DNA of 64,000 nucleotides from Lachnospiraceae bacterium (GTDB taxonomy: Bacteria > Bacillota > Clostridia > Lachnospirales > Lachnospiraceae): contig JAAWNY010000006.1 in NCBI GenBank assembly GCA_022799175.1, forward strand, positions 1 to 64,000. Direction: 5' to 3'. The position numbers and the translations under genes were made by a program. Positions 3,030 through 52,064 of the stretch are shown here, one piece after another. The first letter of the stretch is position 1, and each line of letters starts with the position of its first letter. The notes beneath the pieces are model-generated. The model was given only the letters and a program-made list of their open reading frames with translations, searched no databases and was not told where the DNA came from.

Positions 3030-3615
3030 ACTCGGCGTTAGAAAGTGAAATATAGGGCTGTCGGGAAATAAGAGAAATTTTTTACCCCTAACTTGACAGG
3101 AGAGTATGTGTCAAGGATCGAGAAGAAGGCGGTGGAGAAGCTGCGGCGGGGGATGGAGTGTCCCGGGTAATAATGAGTTGCGGGTACAAGATAAAAGAAC
3201 AGGCAAGGGTAAAGTAAGGGAAGCAATAAGGCGGCAACTTACTTTATCCTTGTTTTTTGTTGTAGATGAGTGGAAAATATACTATAATTATATTAAAATT
3301 TTAAAGGAATCATATACACAAGTTGTTTATAAATGCTCGGAACGTGATATTTTGAGTGGCTGCATTATGTCAATATTATATTGGCTATTAATATCGATAA
3401 TCAAAAGGTAATTGGAAGTAAAATAAACGAATTTATAACAGATCGGATTTTGAAATTTAATCTCAGACAAATGGAAAACGAGTAATATTTTGCTATGCGA
3501 AGATTTGTAAAGACGTAGGATTATATTTGGAAAAAATGGTAGATTTTATATGGAGAGAGGATTGCACTTAAGATTTGTTACATACTGATGGCAGTTAGGG
3601 AATGGGGGATAACAT

Positions 3616-6411
3616 TTGCAAAAGAGATATCAGTATTTAATGGCGAAGACAAACAGAGACTCAAAAGAGGCATGGCTGCCACTATGGATGCATTTAAAAG
3701 ATACTGCAGGTATCATGAAAAGACTGGTGGAGAAGTGGATTTCGCCTGCGGTTGTCTCGGCTGCCGGACTGGAAATGGAACAATTTTTGAAAGTAGCTGT
3801 ATTTCTTGCGGCCATACATGATATAGGAAAGGCAACTTCCTATTTTCAAAGTGTGATAACGGAAGGATGTCTTGGAAAACGGGAAGAAATTATAGAAAAT
3901 GGTTTTGTGGTGAACCGGGTGTATCAGGCAGCGGGAAAGACGCCACATACCTATGCAGGACAATGGATTCTACAAAGTAATACGATAGGATTAGGAGTTC
4001 ATGAAAGCCTGGCGGTAGTGGTGGGGGCTCATCATGGGAAGCCTATAGGCGCAGATTCTATTATGGGAGAGCCTGATTTGATTCAGCTGTATCCGGTAAA
4101 CTTTTTTGGTAGAGGGAAAGAGGAAGAAACGAAGTTTCTGTGGAAAGATGCCTGGTTGGATATTTTGAATCAGGCGATGGAATTGGCGGGGATCCGGTCA
4201 GTCAGTGAGCTTTTTGTTCTGAATCTGGAGGCACAAATCTTGCTTTCTGGGTTGTTGATTGTGGCAGATTGGATTGCCAGTAACACGGCTTTTTTCCCAT
4301 TGCTTCCACTAGAAGATTATGGAAAGGAAGATTTATATCCGGAGCGGATCCAAAACGGATGGGTGCAGGCGGCCTTCCCAGAACATTGGAATTCTGAAGT
4401 CAATTTCATGGACGAGAAGGAATTCGAAAAACGTGTTGGCTTTTGGCCCAATGAGGTGCAAAGATGTGTGTTAGAAGTGGTGAATGATATAAAAGAGCCT
4501 GGTATATTTGTCTTGGAAGCTCAGATGGGGATTGGAAAGACGGAAGCCGCATTGGGGATGGTGGAAATTTTGGCAACTAGAAAGCAGGCAGGTGGAATTT
4601 TCTATGGGCTTCCGACGCAGGCGACCAGTAATGGTTTGTTTAAAAGATTATACGAATGGGGAGAAAAAGTTTCTGAAGAGACCATGCATGCAATTCGCCT
4701 TGCCCATAGTTCTGCCGAGTTTAATGAGGATTATTATCAATTGAGAATGAAAGGGAAAGTATGTATAGAAGATGATGGAAAAAAAGATAGAGTAATAGAG
4801 GTGAACCCCTGGTTTCAGGGAAATAAGAAGGCGCTTCTGGCAGATTTTGTCATAGGGACGGTAGATCAGTTTTTGATGGCTTCGTTAAGACGGAAACATT
4901 TTATGTTGCGGCATATAGGGCTGGCCGGAAAAGTAGTGGTAATAGACGAATGCCATGCGTATGACGCTTACATGAATGAATATTTAGAGAGGTCTCTACA
5001 ATGGATGGCAGCATATGGAGTTCCGGTTATTTTATTGTCGGCGACTCTTCCTTTTGAGAGAAGGAAAACACTGGTGGAATGCTATATAAAGGCATATGCA
5101 AGATATTATCTAAAAAAGAAAAAACTAGAGATCATGTATATGCAGACCAGGTGGGAGAAAAGTACTGAATATCCTCTTTTAACTTGGACAGACGGACAGA
5201 CAGTGAAGCAAAGGGCCGTGAAACAGAAGATACCAGATAAAATCGTAAGAATCCACTATGTGAATGGAATCTTTCACATGATACGTTTGTTGGATGATAG
5301 ATTGCAGGGAGGAGGTTGTGCCTGTATTATTGTTAATACAGTAAAAGTAGCCCAAAAAATTTATGAAGAATGTAAAAACCAGATAGAGAATGCGCAACTG
5401 ATTTTATGTCATGCACAGTTTACCATGCCTGATCGTTATAAAAAGGAGAAGGCGTTGTTGGAAAAAATGGGAAAGCATTCTAGAGATGAGGATAGAAAAT
5501 GGCGTATTGTGATTGGAACACAGGTACTAGAGCAGTCTTTGGACTATGACGCGGACATTATGGTGACGCAGCTTTGTCCGATGGATTTGTTGCTGCAAAG
5601 GATTGGAAGGTTGCACAGACATGAGCGGGATGGAAGAGTAGAAAATTGTTCTAGGCCGGAAGGATTACGAAATCCGGAATGCATTATTTTGCGTGAAGAA
5701 GAGGAGACATATGACACAGGGACCAGAACCATATATGGCGATTATTTGTTGATGAGAACGGAGCAAATTATGCCCGAAGTGATACGGATTCCAGGAGACA
5801 TTTCTGCCTTGGTACAGAAGGTATATGACGAGGGGCAGGATTTGGGACTAGCTGGAAAAAAATATACCAAGGCGAAAGAACGGAACAAAGAGAAGTTAAG
5901 AGGAAAACGGCAAGAGGCAAAAATGTATCTGCTTCAGAAACCTACGTCAAAGATGATACAAGGATTTCTTGATAATGTGGAGAGCTCCAGCGAAAAAATG
6001 GCGGAAGTAGGGGTGAGAGATGGTGTGTCTTCGATAGAAGTGCTTCTGATGAAACGAGGGGAAGACGGAGAAATTTTGTTTACAGGAGAAAACGAGGAGA
6101 AAGGTTTCCGCTTATGGGCAATGGAAGTTCCAGATTGTATACAGAGCCGCAGGATTGCTATGGAGCGACTAAAGCTGCCTCACCTATTTTGTACTCCATG
6201 GAACCAGAATGAAACGATTCGGGAATTGGAGGAGAAAAATAGAATGGAATTGGCACAATGGCAGCTGTCTCCCTGGTTGCATGGGGAATTGATATTGGTA
6301 TTAGATCAGAAAAACCGAGGGGAACTGAACGGATACGTGTTACAGTACAGCCAGGAAAAAGGATTGGAATACGAAAAGAAGGAGGAGGAAGATGCAGGAA
6401 AAGGAGTTTAA
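3616..6411 (+). CDS. cas3: CRISPR-associated helicase/nuclease Cas3 (HD + DExD/H helicase), type I-E
   Basis: N-terminal HD (AAIHDIGKAT), Walker A MGIGKTEAAL, DECHAYD box, IGTQVLEQSLDYDAD, QRIGRLHRH; annotated start is TTG. Confidence 0.95.
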   Translation: MQKRYQYLMAKTNRDSKEAWLPLWMHLKDTAGIMKRLVEKWISPAVVSAAGLEMEQFLKVAVFLAAIHDIGKATSYFQSVITEGCLGKREEIIENGFVVNRVYQAAGKTPHTYAGQWILQSNTIGLGVHESLAVVVGAHHGKPIGADSIMGEPDLIQLYPVNFFGRGKEEETKFLWKDAWLDILNQAMELAGIRSVSELFVLNLEAQILLSGLLIVADWIASNTAFFPLLPLEDYGKEDLYPERIQNGWVQAAFPEHWNSEVNFMDEKEFEKRVGFWPNEVQRCVLEVVNDIKEPGIFVLEAQMGIGKTEAALGMVEILATRKQAGGIFYGLPTQATSNGLFKRLYEWGEKVSEETMHAIRLAHSSAEFNEDYYQLRMKGKVCIEDDGKKDRVIEVNPWFQGNKKALLADFVIGTVDQFLMASLRRKHFMLRHIGLAGKVVVIDECHAYDAYMNEYLERSLQWMAAYGVPVILLSATLPFERRKTLVECYIKAYARYYLKKKKLEIMYMQTRWEKSTEYPLLTWTDGQTVKQRAVKQKIPDKIVRIHYVNGIFHMIRLLDDRLQGGGCACIIVNTVKVAQKIYEECKNQIENAQLILCHAQFTMPDRYKKEKALLEKMGKHSRDEDRKWRIVIGTQVLEQSLDYDADIMVTQLCPMDLLLQRIGRLHRHERDGRVENCSRPEGLRNPECIILREEEETYDTGTRTIYGDYLLMRTEQIMPEVIRIPGDISALVQKVYDEGQDLGLAGKKYTKAKERNKEKLRGKRQEAKMYLLQKPTSKMIQGFLDNVESSSEKMAEVGVRDGVSSIEVLLMKRGEDGEILFTGENEEKGFRLWAMEVPDCIQSRRIAMERLKLPHLFCTPWNQNETIRELEEKNRMELAQWQLSPWLHGELILVLDQKNRGELNGYVLQYSQEKGLEYEKKEEEDAGKGV

Positions 6412-8111
6412 TCTCTTGGAAGAACCATGGATCAAAGTAATCATGCCATCTTTGGAACAAAAAGAGGTTTCCCTAACAGATGCTATTATCTATGCCCATC
6501 AATATAAGAATTTGTCTGGAGAGATGGCTACTCAGGATGCAGCAATGTTTCGATTGCTTCTGGCGATAACAGTGACGATTTTTTATCGATATGATGCAGA
6601 TGGAACCAGTAGAGACCTGAGAGAGGAAGATGAGTGGGAGGAGGAAGAGAGCGATGATGAGCTGGATGAAAATACAGTTCTGAGGCGATGGAAAAGATAT
6701 TGGAAAAAGGGAAGATTCTCGGAGCATGCTGTTAGGGAGTATTTAGAAACTTGGCGTGAAAGATTCTGGCTGTTTCATCCGGAGACACCTTTCTGGCAGG
6801 TGAAAGATTTGCCATACGGTACAGATTATGGGGTGGAATGTCTGTTGGGAAATATGAAAGAAAGTAACAATAAAAAGACTCAACATCATTTCAGTATGAT
6901 GGAAGGAGAGGAATTAGCCCGTTTAAGCTATGGGGAAGTAACGCGCTGGCTTATACACTTGAACGCATATGCGGTCAATGTAAAAACTGATAAAAAAGAT
7001 CCGGCCCCAGGATTGCCAACAGGGGTGGGGAGGCTTGGCCAGCTTGGTTTGATCATGGTAAATGGGGAAAACCTGTTCGAGATTCTGATGCTGAATTTAT
7101 GTGCTCAGAATACAGATAAAGAGTTATGGGAGGAACCAAAACCGATTTGGGAACAGAAAATACGTATGGAACAAGGCTGTGACAGGGAAGAATTTGATAA
7201 CCTTCCTGAATTATATACGATGCAGTCTAGGCGCATTATGTTAAAAAGAAATGAGGATGGTCATTTAATCGGATTCCGTGCTATGGGAGGAGATTTTTTA
7301 CCATTTCGAGATAAATCCAATGAACCCATGACAATTTGGAAATGGAAGAAGGAAGATAAAAAAGCAGAACCACAATTTTCTCCCCAGATACACAACCCAG
7401 CGGTTCATGCGTGGAGGGAATTTCCAACACTGATAGATGCTACTGGCAGTGATGAGAAAAAAACGAAAAAAAGAATTCCAGGAGTGGTCCAGTGGATACA
7501 AGCGCTACAAAAAACAAGTTTAATTTCCACCGATTGTTTGATTACTTTTCGGATGATCGGAATGGTGTATGGTGACCAGATGAGCTATACCTATGGGGAA
7601 TGTATAGAGGATACTCTTACCATGTCGATAAATTTACTAATGGATTTGAACAAAGTATGGAGAGGCCGGATTACGGAGCAGGTAGAGAAATGTCAGTCTG
7701 TGGCGTCAGAAGCGATGGATCGTGCTGCTTATCAGTTGTGTAAGCTTTTATATGGAAATATTGCAGCAAAAGGCAGCATAAAAGGATGTAATGGTAAGTC
7801 AGTATTATTTTTCTATAAACGGCCCATTTCGGGAATGGCTTGTGGGAATAAAACCGGAATCTGATAACGAGGAGAAACTGGAGGAATGGGAAAGACAATC
7901 CTACCAATATGCCAGAAAAACCATAGAGGACTATATAACTGATTTGGGAGTGGATCCTTATATTTATAGGGAAGAAGAGACGAAAGATGGAAGAAAAAGT
8001 TTGTTGACAATTCCGCAGATTATGAACAGATATTTATGGAAGCTGAGGCAAATTTACAAAATAATAGTTGATGAAAGGGGGGAAGGAAATGAGAATGAAA
8101 GCGGAAATTGA
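6392..8111 (+). pseudogene. cas8e: Cascade large subunit Cas8e (Cse1/CasA), apparently split by a +1 frameshift near 7780-7783 (ORFs 6392-7864 and 7791-8111)
   Basis: N-terminal NLLEEPWIKV typical of Cse1; the C-terminal helical bundle continues in the +1 frame (SQYYFSINGPFREWLVGI...IMNRYLWKLRQIYK). Confidence 0.85.
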
Positions 8112-20110: not shown

Positions 20111-20213
20111 AGCAGAGTAGGTCTGTGCGCGTTAAGTGCCGGGTGGACGGGGAGTTGCCAGCCGGACGAAAAGAACAGAAGTTCTTGCGGTGCATGGTCC
20201 GCATCCCGCTGCA
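20111..20213 (+). ncRNA. Tetrahydrofolate (THF) riboswitch
   Basis: agcagagtaggtctgtgcgcgttaagtgccggg...gttcttgcggtgcatggtccgcatcccgctgc matches the conserved THF element cores; directly upstream of folT. Confidence 0.88.
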
Positions 20214-20277
20214 AAGAGGATAATTGCCGGAATTATCTCCTTTGTGCCGCGAGAGGTCTGCAAAGGAGGTAATTTTT

Positions 20278-20847
20278 ATGAGAAAATTAGCAACTTTGTT
20301 CACCGATTCGTACAACGAATTGAAACATGTGAGAACACTCACTCTGACGGGGATGATGGGAGCTGTCTCGGTTGTCCTAGGGTATCTGACACTGGCAATT
20401 GGCGATTATATTAAGATTGGTTTTTCCACGATTGCCAATCAGCTCGTCTATTATTTGTTTGGACCAGTAGTGGGAGGAGCGTTTGGAGGAATGCTTGATA
20501 TTCTCAAATATCTGGTAAAACCGACCGGGCCTTTTTTTCCAGGATGGACATTAGGCGCATTGCTTGCCGGAGTGATCTATGGAGTCTTTTATTATAAAAA
20601 GTCCATATCCTTGTGGCGAGTGTTGGCAGCGGAGCTTGTGGTTTCGGTTCTCTGCAATATGTTATTGGGGACTTACTGGCTGACTTTGATGTATGGTAAT
20701 CGCTTCTTTGATTTGTTCTGGTTACGGGTACAGAAAAATCTAATTATGTGGCCGATTAATTCTCTTATTTTTTTCACGATAGCTAAAAATATGGAAGCTG
20801 CCGGAATTTTCCGTATTATGAAAGAATTCCGAAGAACTTCTTCGTAA
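20278..20847 (+). CDS. folT: ECF transporter S component, folate (FolT)
   Basis: ECF S-component sequence with LVYYLFGPVVGGAFGGMLDILKYLVKPTGPFFPGWTLGALLAG; preceded by THF riboswitch. Confidence 0.92.
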   Translation: MRKLATLFTDSYNELKHVRTLTLTGMMGAVSVVLGYLTLAIGDYIKIGFSTIANQLVYYLFGPVVGGAFGGMLDILKYLVKPTGPFFPGWTLGALLAGVIYGVFYYKKSISLWRVLAAELVVSVLCNMLLGTYWLTLMYGNRFFDLFWLRVQKNLIMWPINSLIFFTIAKNMEAAGIFRIMKEFRRTSS

Positions 20848-49157: not shown

Positions 49158-49295
49158 TCAATATCCAAGGATAACGAAAGGACGGCAAAGTCAGAAATGG
49201 CTTTGCTGTTTAATGGATTCGGCTGCTACATCTCGACTATGGCCTCCTCTTGTGATATACTAAAACCGTATGGAATCACAAAAGGAGGCATTTTT

Positions 49296-52064
49296 ATGGG
49301 CGAACAGGCAGAGGAAAAGAAGCTTGAAAAGCCAATAAAACACATTTGTGCGGGTCTGTTGGCCCATGTGGATGCAGGAAAAACCACCTTGTCAGAGAGA
49401 ATTTTGTATCTGACTGGCCGGATTCGCAAGCTAGGTAGAGTGGATACGGGAGATACTTATCTGGATACTTATGAGATGGAGCGTTCCCGAGGAATTACGA
49501 TTTTTTCTAAGCAGGCAGTATTTCCTTTGGATGACTGGTGGGTGACGCTGTTGGATACTCCTGGCCATGTGGATTTTTCAGCAGAGATGGAGCGGACTTT
49601 GCAGGTATTGGATTATGCGGTTTTAGTGATTAGTGGAGCGGATGGCGTGCAGGGACATACAAAAACGTTGTGGCGGTTGTTGAAGCGATATGAGATTCCC
49701 TGCTTTCTGTTTGTCAATAAGATGGATCAGGAGGGGACAGATCGGAAACGATTGCTGGAAGAACTGCAGAGAGGGTTGGATGAAAATTGTCTGGATTTTG
49801 GACAGCCACCAAAGGAGCTGTGGGAAAATCTCGCTATGTGTGAGGAGGAGATGCTGGAAAGATATCTGGAAACGGGGAGAATCGAGATCAGACAGATGCA
49901 ATCCTTGATTGCCAGACGAAAAGTGTTTCCTTGCTGGTTCGGCTCTGCATTGCGGGGGGATGGCGTGGAGGTCATGCTGAAAGGGCTTTCTGACTTGATG
50001 TGTTGTCCGGATGTTAGAGAGGAGTTTGGAGCTAAAGTATTCAAGATTTCACGGGATGGGCAGGGAAACCGGCTTACCCATATGAAGATTACAGGTGGAA
50101 AATTACAGGTGAAAGATTGGCTGCCCGGAAAGGAAGAGGAAAAGATCAACCAGATTCGAATCTATTCCGGTGCGAAATATGAAACGGTGCAGGTGGCAGA
50201 GGCCGGAATGGTCTGTGCAGTGACAGGGCCGATGACGACTCGTCCGGGACAGGGATTGGGAATCGAGGAGGAGTCAGAGCTTCCGGTTTTGGAACCCGTG
50301 ATGAGCTACCAGATTTTGGCGCCGGAAGGCTGCGATATCCATCGCCTGCTCAAGGATCTACGACAGTTGGAGGAGGAAGAGCCACAACTGCATATTGTCT
50401 GGAATGAGGAGCTTCAGGAGATTCACGCTCAAGTGATGGGAGAGATTCAGATTGATATCTTGAAAAATCAGATTCAGGAACGTTTTGGAATGAAGGTGGA
50501 ATTTGACGCCGGAAATATCGTCTACAAGGAAACGATTGTAAAAGCAGTGGAAGGGGTAGGTCATTTTGAGCCTCTGCGCCATTATGCAGAAGTACATTTG
50601 CTGATGGAGCCAGCAGAGCGGGGAAGCGGGCTGCAGTTTGAGACTTGTTGCAGCGAGGATGTTCTGGATCGGAACTGGCAGCGATTGATTTTGTCGCATC
50701 TGGAAGAAAAGCTTCACCGGGGAGTACGGACAGGGGCGGAACTCACCGATATGCGGATTACTCTGATATCTGGCCGGGCACATCAGAAGCATACGGAAGG
50801 CGGAGATTTCCGGCAGGCTACTTACCGCGCGGTGCGCCAGGGATTGCGCGAGGCAGGCTGCCAGTTGTTAGAACCTTATTATGCTTTCCGTTTGGAGGTG
50901 CCAGGGGAAAATGTGGGACGTGCTATGTCGGATCTGGAACGGATGCAGGGAACGTTTGCCGCTCCTTGTCTGGAAGGAGAAATGGCAGTGCTGACGGGAA
51001 GCGCGCCCGTTGTCTGCCTTCAGGACTATCCACAGGAGGTAATCCGGTATACCCGGGGCAGAGGACGGCTGTTTTGTGTGCTTGAGGGATACAGGCATTG
51101 TCACAATGAGGAAGAGATTGTTGCAGCAATTGGATATGATCCCGAAGCCGATCTGGACAATCCCACAGGCTCTGTGTTTTGTTCGCATGGGGCCGGATTT
51201 GTGGTGCCTTGGGATCAGGTGAAGAATTATATGCATGTGGAAGGAATGAGGACAGAAGGACTGTCGAAAGAAACCGGCCTTTTACTGGGGAATGCGCCGG
51301 AGGGAAGAAGGGAACGAGATCTTGAGAGCAGAACGTTTCCGGGCGGCATGGAGCAGAGCAGAGGCGGACTGCCCTTTGGGGCAGAAGATAAGGAGTTAGA
51401 GGCAATTTTTGCCCGCACCTACGGAACCCCCAAAAGAAGACAAGCCTTCGAGAATGGGCCGCGTCAGGTAAGATACGAGGGGAAGAAGGACGATTCCTAT
51501 GGGGCCAAAAATCCAACCGCTTTCGGGCAGAAGAAAGAGAAGAAGGAAGAGTATCTTCTGGTGGATGGCTATAATATTATTTATGCCTGGGAGGAACTGC
51601 GCGAGCTGGCGAAGGAAACCATAGACGGAGCAAGACATCAGCTGATGGATATCTTGTGCAATTATCAGGCATTCCGGCAGTGTATTTTGATTGTAGTATT
51701 TGATGCCTATAAGGTTGCTGGAAATACCGGTCATACCATGAATTATCATAATATTCATGTGGCTTACACCAAAGAGGCGGAAACAGCCGATCAATACATC
51801 GAAAAATTCGCCTATCAGATGGGAAAAAATGCACATGTGACAGTAGCTACTTCCGATGGCCTAGAGCAGCTCATCATTCGTGGAGCTGGCTGCCTGCTTC
51901 TGTCGGCCCGGGATTTGAAAGAGGATATTGAGCGCACAAAGCAGCTAATTCGGGAGGAACAGGAGAAGCTGCCCCGGGGAGGCAAGATTTCTTTTTTTCA
52001 AAACGCAGACGAAGAGCTGGTTGCGCACCTAGAAGCGATTCGCCTTAATAATTCTGATGCGTGA
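49296..52064 (+). CDS. TetM-like (ribosomal-protection-type) translational GTPase fused to C-terminal YacP/Rae1-like NYN endoribonuclease domain
   Basis: G1 AHVDAGKTTLSE, RGITIF, DTPGHVDFSAEMER, NKMDQEG, then from ~51550 YLLVDGYNIIYAWEEL...ILIVVFDAYKV...HVAYTKEAETADQYIEK...VTVATSDGLEQLIIRGAGCLLLSARDL. Confidence 0.92.
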   Translation: MGEQAEEKKLEKPIKHICAGLLAHVDAGKTTLSERILYLTGRIRKLGRVDTGDTYLDTYEMERSRGITIFSKQAVFPLDDWWVTLLDTPGHVDFSAEMERTLQVLDYAVLVISGADGVQGHTKTLWRLLKRYEIPCFLFVNKMDQEGTDRKRLLEELQRGLDENCLDFGQPPKELWENLAMCEEEMLERYLETGRIEIRQMQSLIARRKVFPCWFGSALRGDGVEVMLKGLSDLMCCPDVREEFGAKVFKISRDGQGNRLTHMKITGGKLQVKDWLPGKEEEKINQIRIYSGAKYETVQVAEAGMVCAVTGPMTTRPGQGLGIEEESELPVLEPVMSYQILAPEGCDIHRLLKDLRQLEEEEPQLHIVWNEELQEIHAQVMGEIQIDILKNQIQERFGMKVEFDAGNIVYKETIVKAVEGVGHFEPLRHYAEVHLLMEPAERGSGLQFETCCSEDVLDRNWQRLILSHLEEKLHRGVRTGAELTDMRITLISGRAHQKHTEGGDFRQATYRAVRQGLREAGCQLLEPYYAFRLEVPGENVGRAMSDLERMQGTFAAPCLEGEMAVLTGSAPVVCLQDYPQEVIRYTRGRGRLFCVLEGYRHCHNEEEIVAAIGYDPEADLDNPTGSVFCSHGAGFVVPWDQVKNYMHVEGMRTEGLSKETGLLLGNAPEGRRERDLESRTFPGGMEQSRGGLPFGAEDKELEAIFARTYGTPKRRQAFENGPRQVRYEGKKDDSYGAKNPTAFGQKKEKKEEYLLVDGYNIIYAWEELRELAKETIDGARHQLMDILCNYQAFRQCILIVVFDAYKVAGNTGHTMNYHNIHVAYTKEAETADQYIEKFAYQMGKNAHVTVATSDGLEQLIIRGAGCLLLSARDLKEDIERTKQLIREEQEKLPRGGKISFFQNADEELVAHLEAIRLNNSDA

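Follow-up and report, generated by a model that had tools for sequence, protein, structure and literature searches.

The window, as we call the whole 64,000-nt stretch of Lachnospiraceae bacterium DNA that was analyzed, carries at 49296-52064 on the plus strand a single stop-free ORF of 922 aa, whose translation joins a GTPase to an NYN nuclease, so the uninterrupted frame described in an earlier note on this DNA stands. A longer mechanical ORF begins at 49197. The ATG at 49296 was favored as the start over that position because the ribosome-binding sequence AAAGGAGG, at 49281-49288, sits 7 nt 5′ of it. The gene and its candidate promoter are as follows, the latter to be read against five consensus matches found near the gene where 3.1 were expected.

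49296..52064, + strand: complete fusion gene, 922 aa (ORF translation, Pfam, RBS)
49233..49261, + strand: promoter-like site TCGACT-17-TATACT, with TG preceding the -10 (consensus match only)

A search upstream of the gene found no terminator, leader peptide, or attenuator as in inducible resistance genes. The gene lies between what we take, from our reading of the ORFs, to be purD and gpmI. At 20 fused loci from many families, with few reference genes available as labels, no conserved operon partners were seen. Since the neighbors of the fused genes differ between genomes, the fusion appears to be a core gene in its own right and not a member of an operon or island. An anti-phage defense family was also considered and was rejected, as the fusion had no PADLOC match. 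Elsewhere in the window, an ordinary THF riboswitch (RF01831, 88.9 bits) occupies 20111-20213 (+), and the ORF just 3′ of it (20224-20847) encodes a small membrane protein that resembles the substrate-binding subunit of a folate ECF transporter.

Domain organization of the fusion protein

The following parts were delimited in the protein, in order from the N-terminus.

49338..49994, + strand: GTPase domain, residues 15-233, GTP_EFTU, G1-G5 intact (Pfam, alignment)
50025..50504, + strand: EF-G domains II and III, residues 244-403 (Pfam, structure model)
50514..50855, + strand: EF-G domain IV, EFG_IV, residues 407-520 (Pfam, loop alignments)
50781..50813, + strand: domain IV loop III HQKHTEGGDFR, residues 496-506 (alignment)
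50862..51110, + strand: EF-G domain V, EFG_C, residues 523-605 (Pfam)
51111..51245, + strand: clade-specific C-terminal extension, residues 606-650 (alignment)
51246..51545, + strand: disordered, fast-evolving linker, residues about 651-750 (pLDDT<50, dN/dS about 0.40)
51381..51431, + strand: linker helix DKELEAIFARTYG and basic tail, residues about 696-712 (dN/dS, 39/42 loci)
51555..52043, + strand: NYN_YacP (Rae1) nuclease domain, residues 754-916 (Pfam, alignment, fold match)

The G motifs read AHVDAGKTT, RGIT, DTPGHVDF, NKMD, and GSAL, and their core residues were invariant across 21 diverse homologues. Together with domains II-V (Pfam, alignment, model), they place the protein among the EF2-family translational GTPases. 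The full EF-G-type GTPase claimed in the earlier note was thus recovered, Pfam matching domains I-V, with EF-G_D2 (residues 244-318) at 24.3 bits, slightly under the 27-bit cut-off, and EFG_III at residues 333-403. The GTPase half retains the fold of EF-G, including domain IV, which is the part that enters the decoding center in EF-G and TetM; H496 aligns with the loop III histidine of EF-G.

The region between the two halves had been read as a charged linker of about 100 aa, a description that needs revision, because it is actually a folded and conserved extension (about 606-650) followed by a disordered segment (653-748) with a helix inside it. The extension is common to the fused and unfused members of the clade and is absent from TetM, TetO, TetB(P), and EF-G. 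C629 and W639 within it, as well as C602 just before it, are invariant, and the extension (window 51111-51245) might be a metal or structural site. In the AlphaFold2 (AF2) model, the helix was placed at 698-709 in an otherwise disordered stretch with pLDDT<50; the full-length model had a low pTM of 0.54 and gives no placement of the domains relative to each other.

Relation of the GTPase to Tet proteins and EF-G

In a tree built from domains I-V, the fused and unfused members formed one clade (support 100/99), and TetM, TetO, and the OtrA-like protein formed a separate one (support 100/96); when TetB(P) was added, all four reference RPPs stayed together. The clade of the fusion GTPase accordingly appears as sister to the tetracycline-protection proteins, although the long branches of EF-G and the OtrA-like protein were flagged, and the deep branching is less certain than the fact that the clades are separate. 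Among solved structures, the GTPase is closest by sequence to TetO and TetM. The window GTPase shares 48-66% identity with other fused members and 41-50% with unfused clade members, against 28.6% with TetM and 32.5% with TetB(P). Identification with TetB(P) was rejected because of this low identity and because TetB(P) falls inside the RPP clade.

The fusion shares an EF-G-like five-domain GTPase with TetM, TetO, TetB(P), and OtrA, but is only 28-33% identical to them, has a different C-terminal extension, and shows neither the Pro509 motif of loop III nor the NPFWA motif of loop I. In the alignment, loop III reads SPxST(P/A)ADFR in TetM, TetO, TetB(P), and the OtrA-like protein, whereas it reads GxxHxKHTxGGDFR in the fusion clade; loop I reads NPF(W/L)A in the former and EPLRHYAEV in the latter. 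The contact that TetM makes with C1054 at the tetracycline site involves Pro509 (PMC8161019), and the loop III motif that bears this proline was not present in the alignment of the fusion clade. With EF-G, the fusion shares the domain order, the GTPase motifs, and the loop III histidine, but it is 29.5% identical and scored 280 bits on the EF-G model, below the cut-off of 659. The genome of the window encodes a separate EFG_C protein of EF-G size and two others of LepA/TypA size.

On NF012153, the NCBI tet_protect model, the window protein scored 428.9 bits and fell under the cut-off of 775, an unfused relative scored 426.8, and TetB(P), the positive control, scored 959.4. Because the drug-displacing loops are missing and the resistance cut-off is failed, tetracycline protection is argued against, and judged from its sequence the fusion is probably not a tetracycline-resistance protein. 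The label TetM-like therefore held for the EF-G/Tet type of the GTPase and failed for its finer placement, since the protein belongs to a sister clade, is 28.6% identical to TetM, lacks the tetracycline loops, and fails the resistance models. We conclude that the fusion would work like an A-site factor of the EF-G/Tet family and should not be classified among the proteins of tetracycline resistance.

The unfused members, found in some Clostridia, on Ligilactobacillus salivarius plasmids, and in Paenibacillus, have the same domain IV loops and extension as the fusion, slightly changed in the loops of the L. salivarius member, but stop right after the extension, without the linker helix or the NYN domain. 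One of them lies at 3530-5920 on the L. salivarius megaplasmid p612A, where it is annotated as tetracycline resistance and adjoins an rpsN (S14) gene on the opposite strand; 44 Ligilactobacillus plasmid records match this protein. A fused copy at 3980-6781 of an Agathobacter rectalis plasmid record is annotated as TetM/TetW/TetO/TetS tetracycline resistance, likely a misannotation. The earlier prediction that automated annotation would name the fusion a tetracycline-resistance protein was borne out for A. rectalis (WP_306784676), but not for the Monoglobus copy, which RefSeq names "translation factor GTPase family protein".

The nuclease half and the linker helix

The NYN half matched PF05991 with E=1e-49 and 169 bits (cut-off 24.6), covering profile positions 1-165 of 166. 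Its active-site acids D757, D803, D832, and D854 correspond to D7, D53, D81, and D104 of B. subtilis Rae1, and all four aspartates were conserved without exception among the 22 fused and 15 free sequences compared, in agreement with the complete, acid-retaining YacP domain that had been proposed. By sequence, the half matched B. subtilis YacP (5MQ9, E 8e-25; 5MQ8, E 1.5e-24). Its AF2 model (pLDDT 86.7) matched 5MQ9 in Foldseek with E 1.7e-11 and a TM of 0.68-0.74; the next unrelated match had E 0.0036, leaving Rae1 (5MQ9/5MQ8) as the one confident match. The NYN half thus has the fold and the active-site acids of B. subtilis Rae1/YacP (PDB 5MQ8, 5MQ9), which, unlike the fusion, is a free protein of about 170 aa whose free counterpart gene in Clostridia commonly follows rlmB.

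Of the 97 fused proteins listed, 50 lack the C-terminal tail of the YacP profile, against 1 of 53 standalone proteins (p=3e-11, with kinship ignored); the window copy retains it. Such a loss would be expected if the GTPase had taken over ribosome binding. Within the genus, dN/dS was about 0.11 for the GTPase, about 0.12 for the NYN domain, and about 0.40 for the linker, values that are rough because synonymous sites are near saturation. The linker helix, with a dN/dS of 0.13 and 71% identity in the genus, is constrained like the domains. It was found in 39 of the 42 fused loci examined (three of them the same gene), in the form DKELEAIFARTYGxxKRR or, in another group, SLEEIDxIINxTYYANQGKKSxWKK, and it is restricted to the fused proteins, lying outside both free halves. 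Across fused loci, the linker measures about 67-139 residues.

Distribution of the fusion and of free Rae1

A sample of 338 genomes across Clostridia was searched with PF05991 and with a clade profile of domain V plus the extension (E<1e-30). PF05991 was found in 217 of the 338 genomes and the GTPase clade profile matched in 143; the fusion was present in 125, the unfused GTPase in 18, and YacP without the fusion in 92. Full-length fusions with a frame of at least 840 aa were found in 112 of the 125 genomes. The remaining 13 were shorter or uncertain, in most cases because the contig stops there; in G280, the halves lie on different contigs. Spanning about 26 family-level groups, the fusion is the commonest form of Rae1 in the sampled Clostridia. 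In a search of 60 relatives, the same-genus genomes with a match had a fused frame of about 850-1040 aa. A sequencing or assembly error or a chance joining of domains was rejected, as the same architecture occurs in over 100 other genomes. The observations that could have overturned the earlier note thus went in its favor: the PF05991 match is highly significant, other genomes share the fusion, and the acids do not vary. In a phylum sample, the GTPase clade was found in 20 of 299 genomes, two of them with an unfused-length form. A single origin of the fusion was not rejected by either half (p-AU 0.218 for the GTPase and 0.355 for the NYN domain). Two records labeled Bacteriophage sp., MT835563 and MT835514, both of human faecal origin, also contain near-full-length fusions (55% and 49% identity), as phage cargo or mis-binned host DNA.

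A second PF05991 match was found in five fused genomes: three matches (G193, G257, G298) fell under the family cut-off and were rejected as real Rae1s, one was a second fused copy, and one was a free YacP. A full standalone YacP therefore accompanies the fusion in only 1 of the 125 fused genomes (G384), so that fused and free Rae1 are almost mutually exclusive, and the survey that the earlier note had proposed found standalone YacP nearly always absent beside the fusion. Because of this exclusion, the fusion presumably does the work of Rae1 in the genomes that have it. The window's genome (assembly 91% complete) has no PF05991 gene other than the fusion. Where Clostridia have free YacP, yacP commonly comes after cysS, mrnC, and rlmB, in some cases separated from them by a single gene; the window's genome keeps these three genes together, but a transglutaminase-domain gene comes next, and yacP is absent from its usual place.

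Among the 338 Clostridia, co-occurrence of the unfused GTPase with free YacP did not exceed chance (10/18 against 82/195, p=0.32). An obligate, Rosetta-stone type of partnership between the two was rejected for this lack of association, and each half also occurs without the other in the sampled genomes.

Possible mechanism and alternative explanations

B. subtilis Rae1 is described as a translation-dependent A-site mRNA endonuclease (PMC12320835, PMC10100781). According to a review, it can attack mRNA located in the A site, and when that site is occupied, endonuclease cleavage is required before tmRNA can use it (PMC12320835). An efp mutant is suppressed when Rae1 is lost (PMC6613710). Factors of the EF-G/TetM type occupy the A site, and Tet factors leave it once GTP has been hydrolyzed (PMC8161019). 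Against this background, we put at about an even chance that the fusion acts as a Rae1 guided by a GTPase on the same chain, engaging stalled ribosomes and cutting the mRNA they carry. The EF-G/Tet-type half would bind ribosomes with an empty or blocked A site, whether paused, starved, drug-bound, or collided, and the tip of its domain IV would probe the decoding center. GTP hydrolysis would then release or shift the GTPase half, and the tethered NYN domain could move into the vacated A site, or into the A site of a neighboring collided ribosome, where it would cut the mRNA and leave a shortened transcript to be handled by tmRNA-type rescue and decay. Since domain IV and the NYN domain would compete for one A site, they would have to act one after the other or on two ribosomes, and the linker length allows both. 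The sequential action of the halves, the targeting of the nuclease by the GTPase, and stalling as the trigger are what we infer. This guided-nuclease reading is supported by the invariance of the catalytic residues and the similar purifying selection in both halves, as well as by the match of the NYN model to Rae1 alone, the mutual exclusion of fused and free Rae1, the absence of yacP after rlmB in the window's genome, and the tail loss in fused proteins. Obligate pairing of the halves is argued against by their chance-level co-occurrence when separate. A stronger version, possible but short of probable, is that the protein is the first GTPase-gated ribosomal mRNA endonuclease, in which the GTPase recognizes an A site that is stalled or occupied by a drug and so permits Rae1 to cut the mRNA of that ribosome, with the linker helix as a switch or ribosome anchor. 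Hbs1/Dom34 plus an A-site endonuclease form a eukaryotic pathway, of which the fusion would be a one-protein counterpart in the Clostridia that have it.

The occurrence of each half alone, their nonsignificant co-occurrence, and the disordered, fast-evolving linker between them are also what would be seen if the protein comprised two independent modules, an ordinary Rae1 and a separate EF-G-like factor, joined to fix their ratio and keep the nuclease near ribosomes. We find this rather doubtful, given that fused and free Rae1 nearly exclude each other, that the conserved linker helix is found in neither free half, and that many fusions have lost the Rae1 tail, which suggests functional integration. 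A role in ribosome maturation or quality control, with the GTPase testing new or damaged subunits and the NYN domain processing or cutting rRNA or tRNA, would recall the first proposal for NYN_YacP, namely, maturation of rRNA and tRNA (cited in PMC4342817), and in Clostridia free yacP adjoins two genes for 23S rRNA factors, mrnC (mini-RNase III) and rlmB. It is unlikely, however, in view of the A-site mRNA cleavage described for B. subtilis Rae1 and of a GTPase whose EF-G fold and domain IV suit an assembled decoding center.

The fusion was reported in 2015 by Atkinson, who described a Tet-subfamily trGTPase joined to a YacP-like NYN domain in ten Clostridiales and offered it, without functional work, as a possible resistance mechanism (BMC Genomics, PMC4342817). 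A protein protecting against tetracycline or another A-site drug, to which the added RNase would contribute, would agree with the Tet type of the GTPase and with the TetM/TetW/TetO/TetS family name that RefSeq gives some fused copies. We nevertheless consider it very unlikely: the tet_protect score is 429 bits where the cut-off is 775 and TetB(P) reaches 959, and neither the Pro509-bearing SPxSTPADFR motif of loop III nor the NPFWA motif of loop I is present. The gene is, moreover, a widespread chromosomal one in a clade of its own, here beside the presumed purD and gpmI, and no attenuator-like leader was found.

Compared by published description, the present protein has the architecture of the Tet-YacP fusions of 2015, also from Clostridia, so the architecture is already known and not of a new kind. 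As far as was checked, the new elements are the class-wide prevalence, the replacement of free Rae1, the missing tetracycline loops, the linker helix, and the tail loss. No functional study of the fusion was found in the open literature; a 2018 paper on the distribution of Rae1 may mention it. Core-genome fusions misnamed as tetracycline-resistance proteins, without the resistance motifs, can inflate resistome counts. In a large part of Clostridia, the fusion ties Rae1 to an A-site GTPase, almost always as the only Rae1, and the choice of ribosomes by Rae1 becomes testable through one fused protein.
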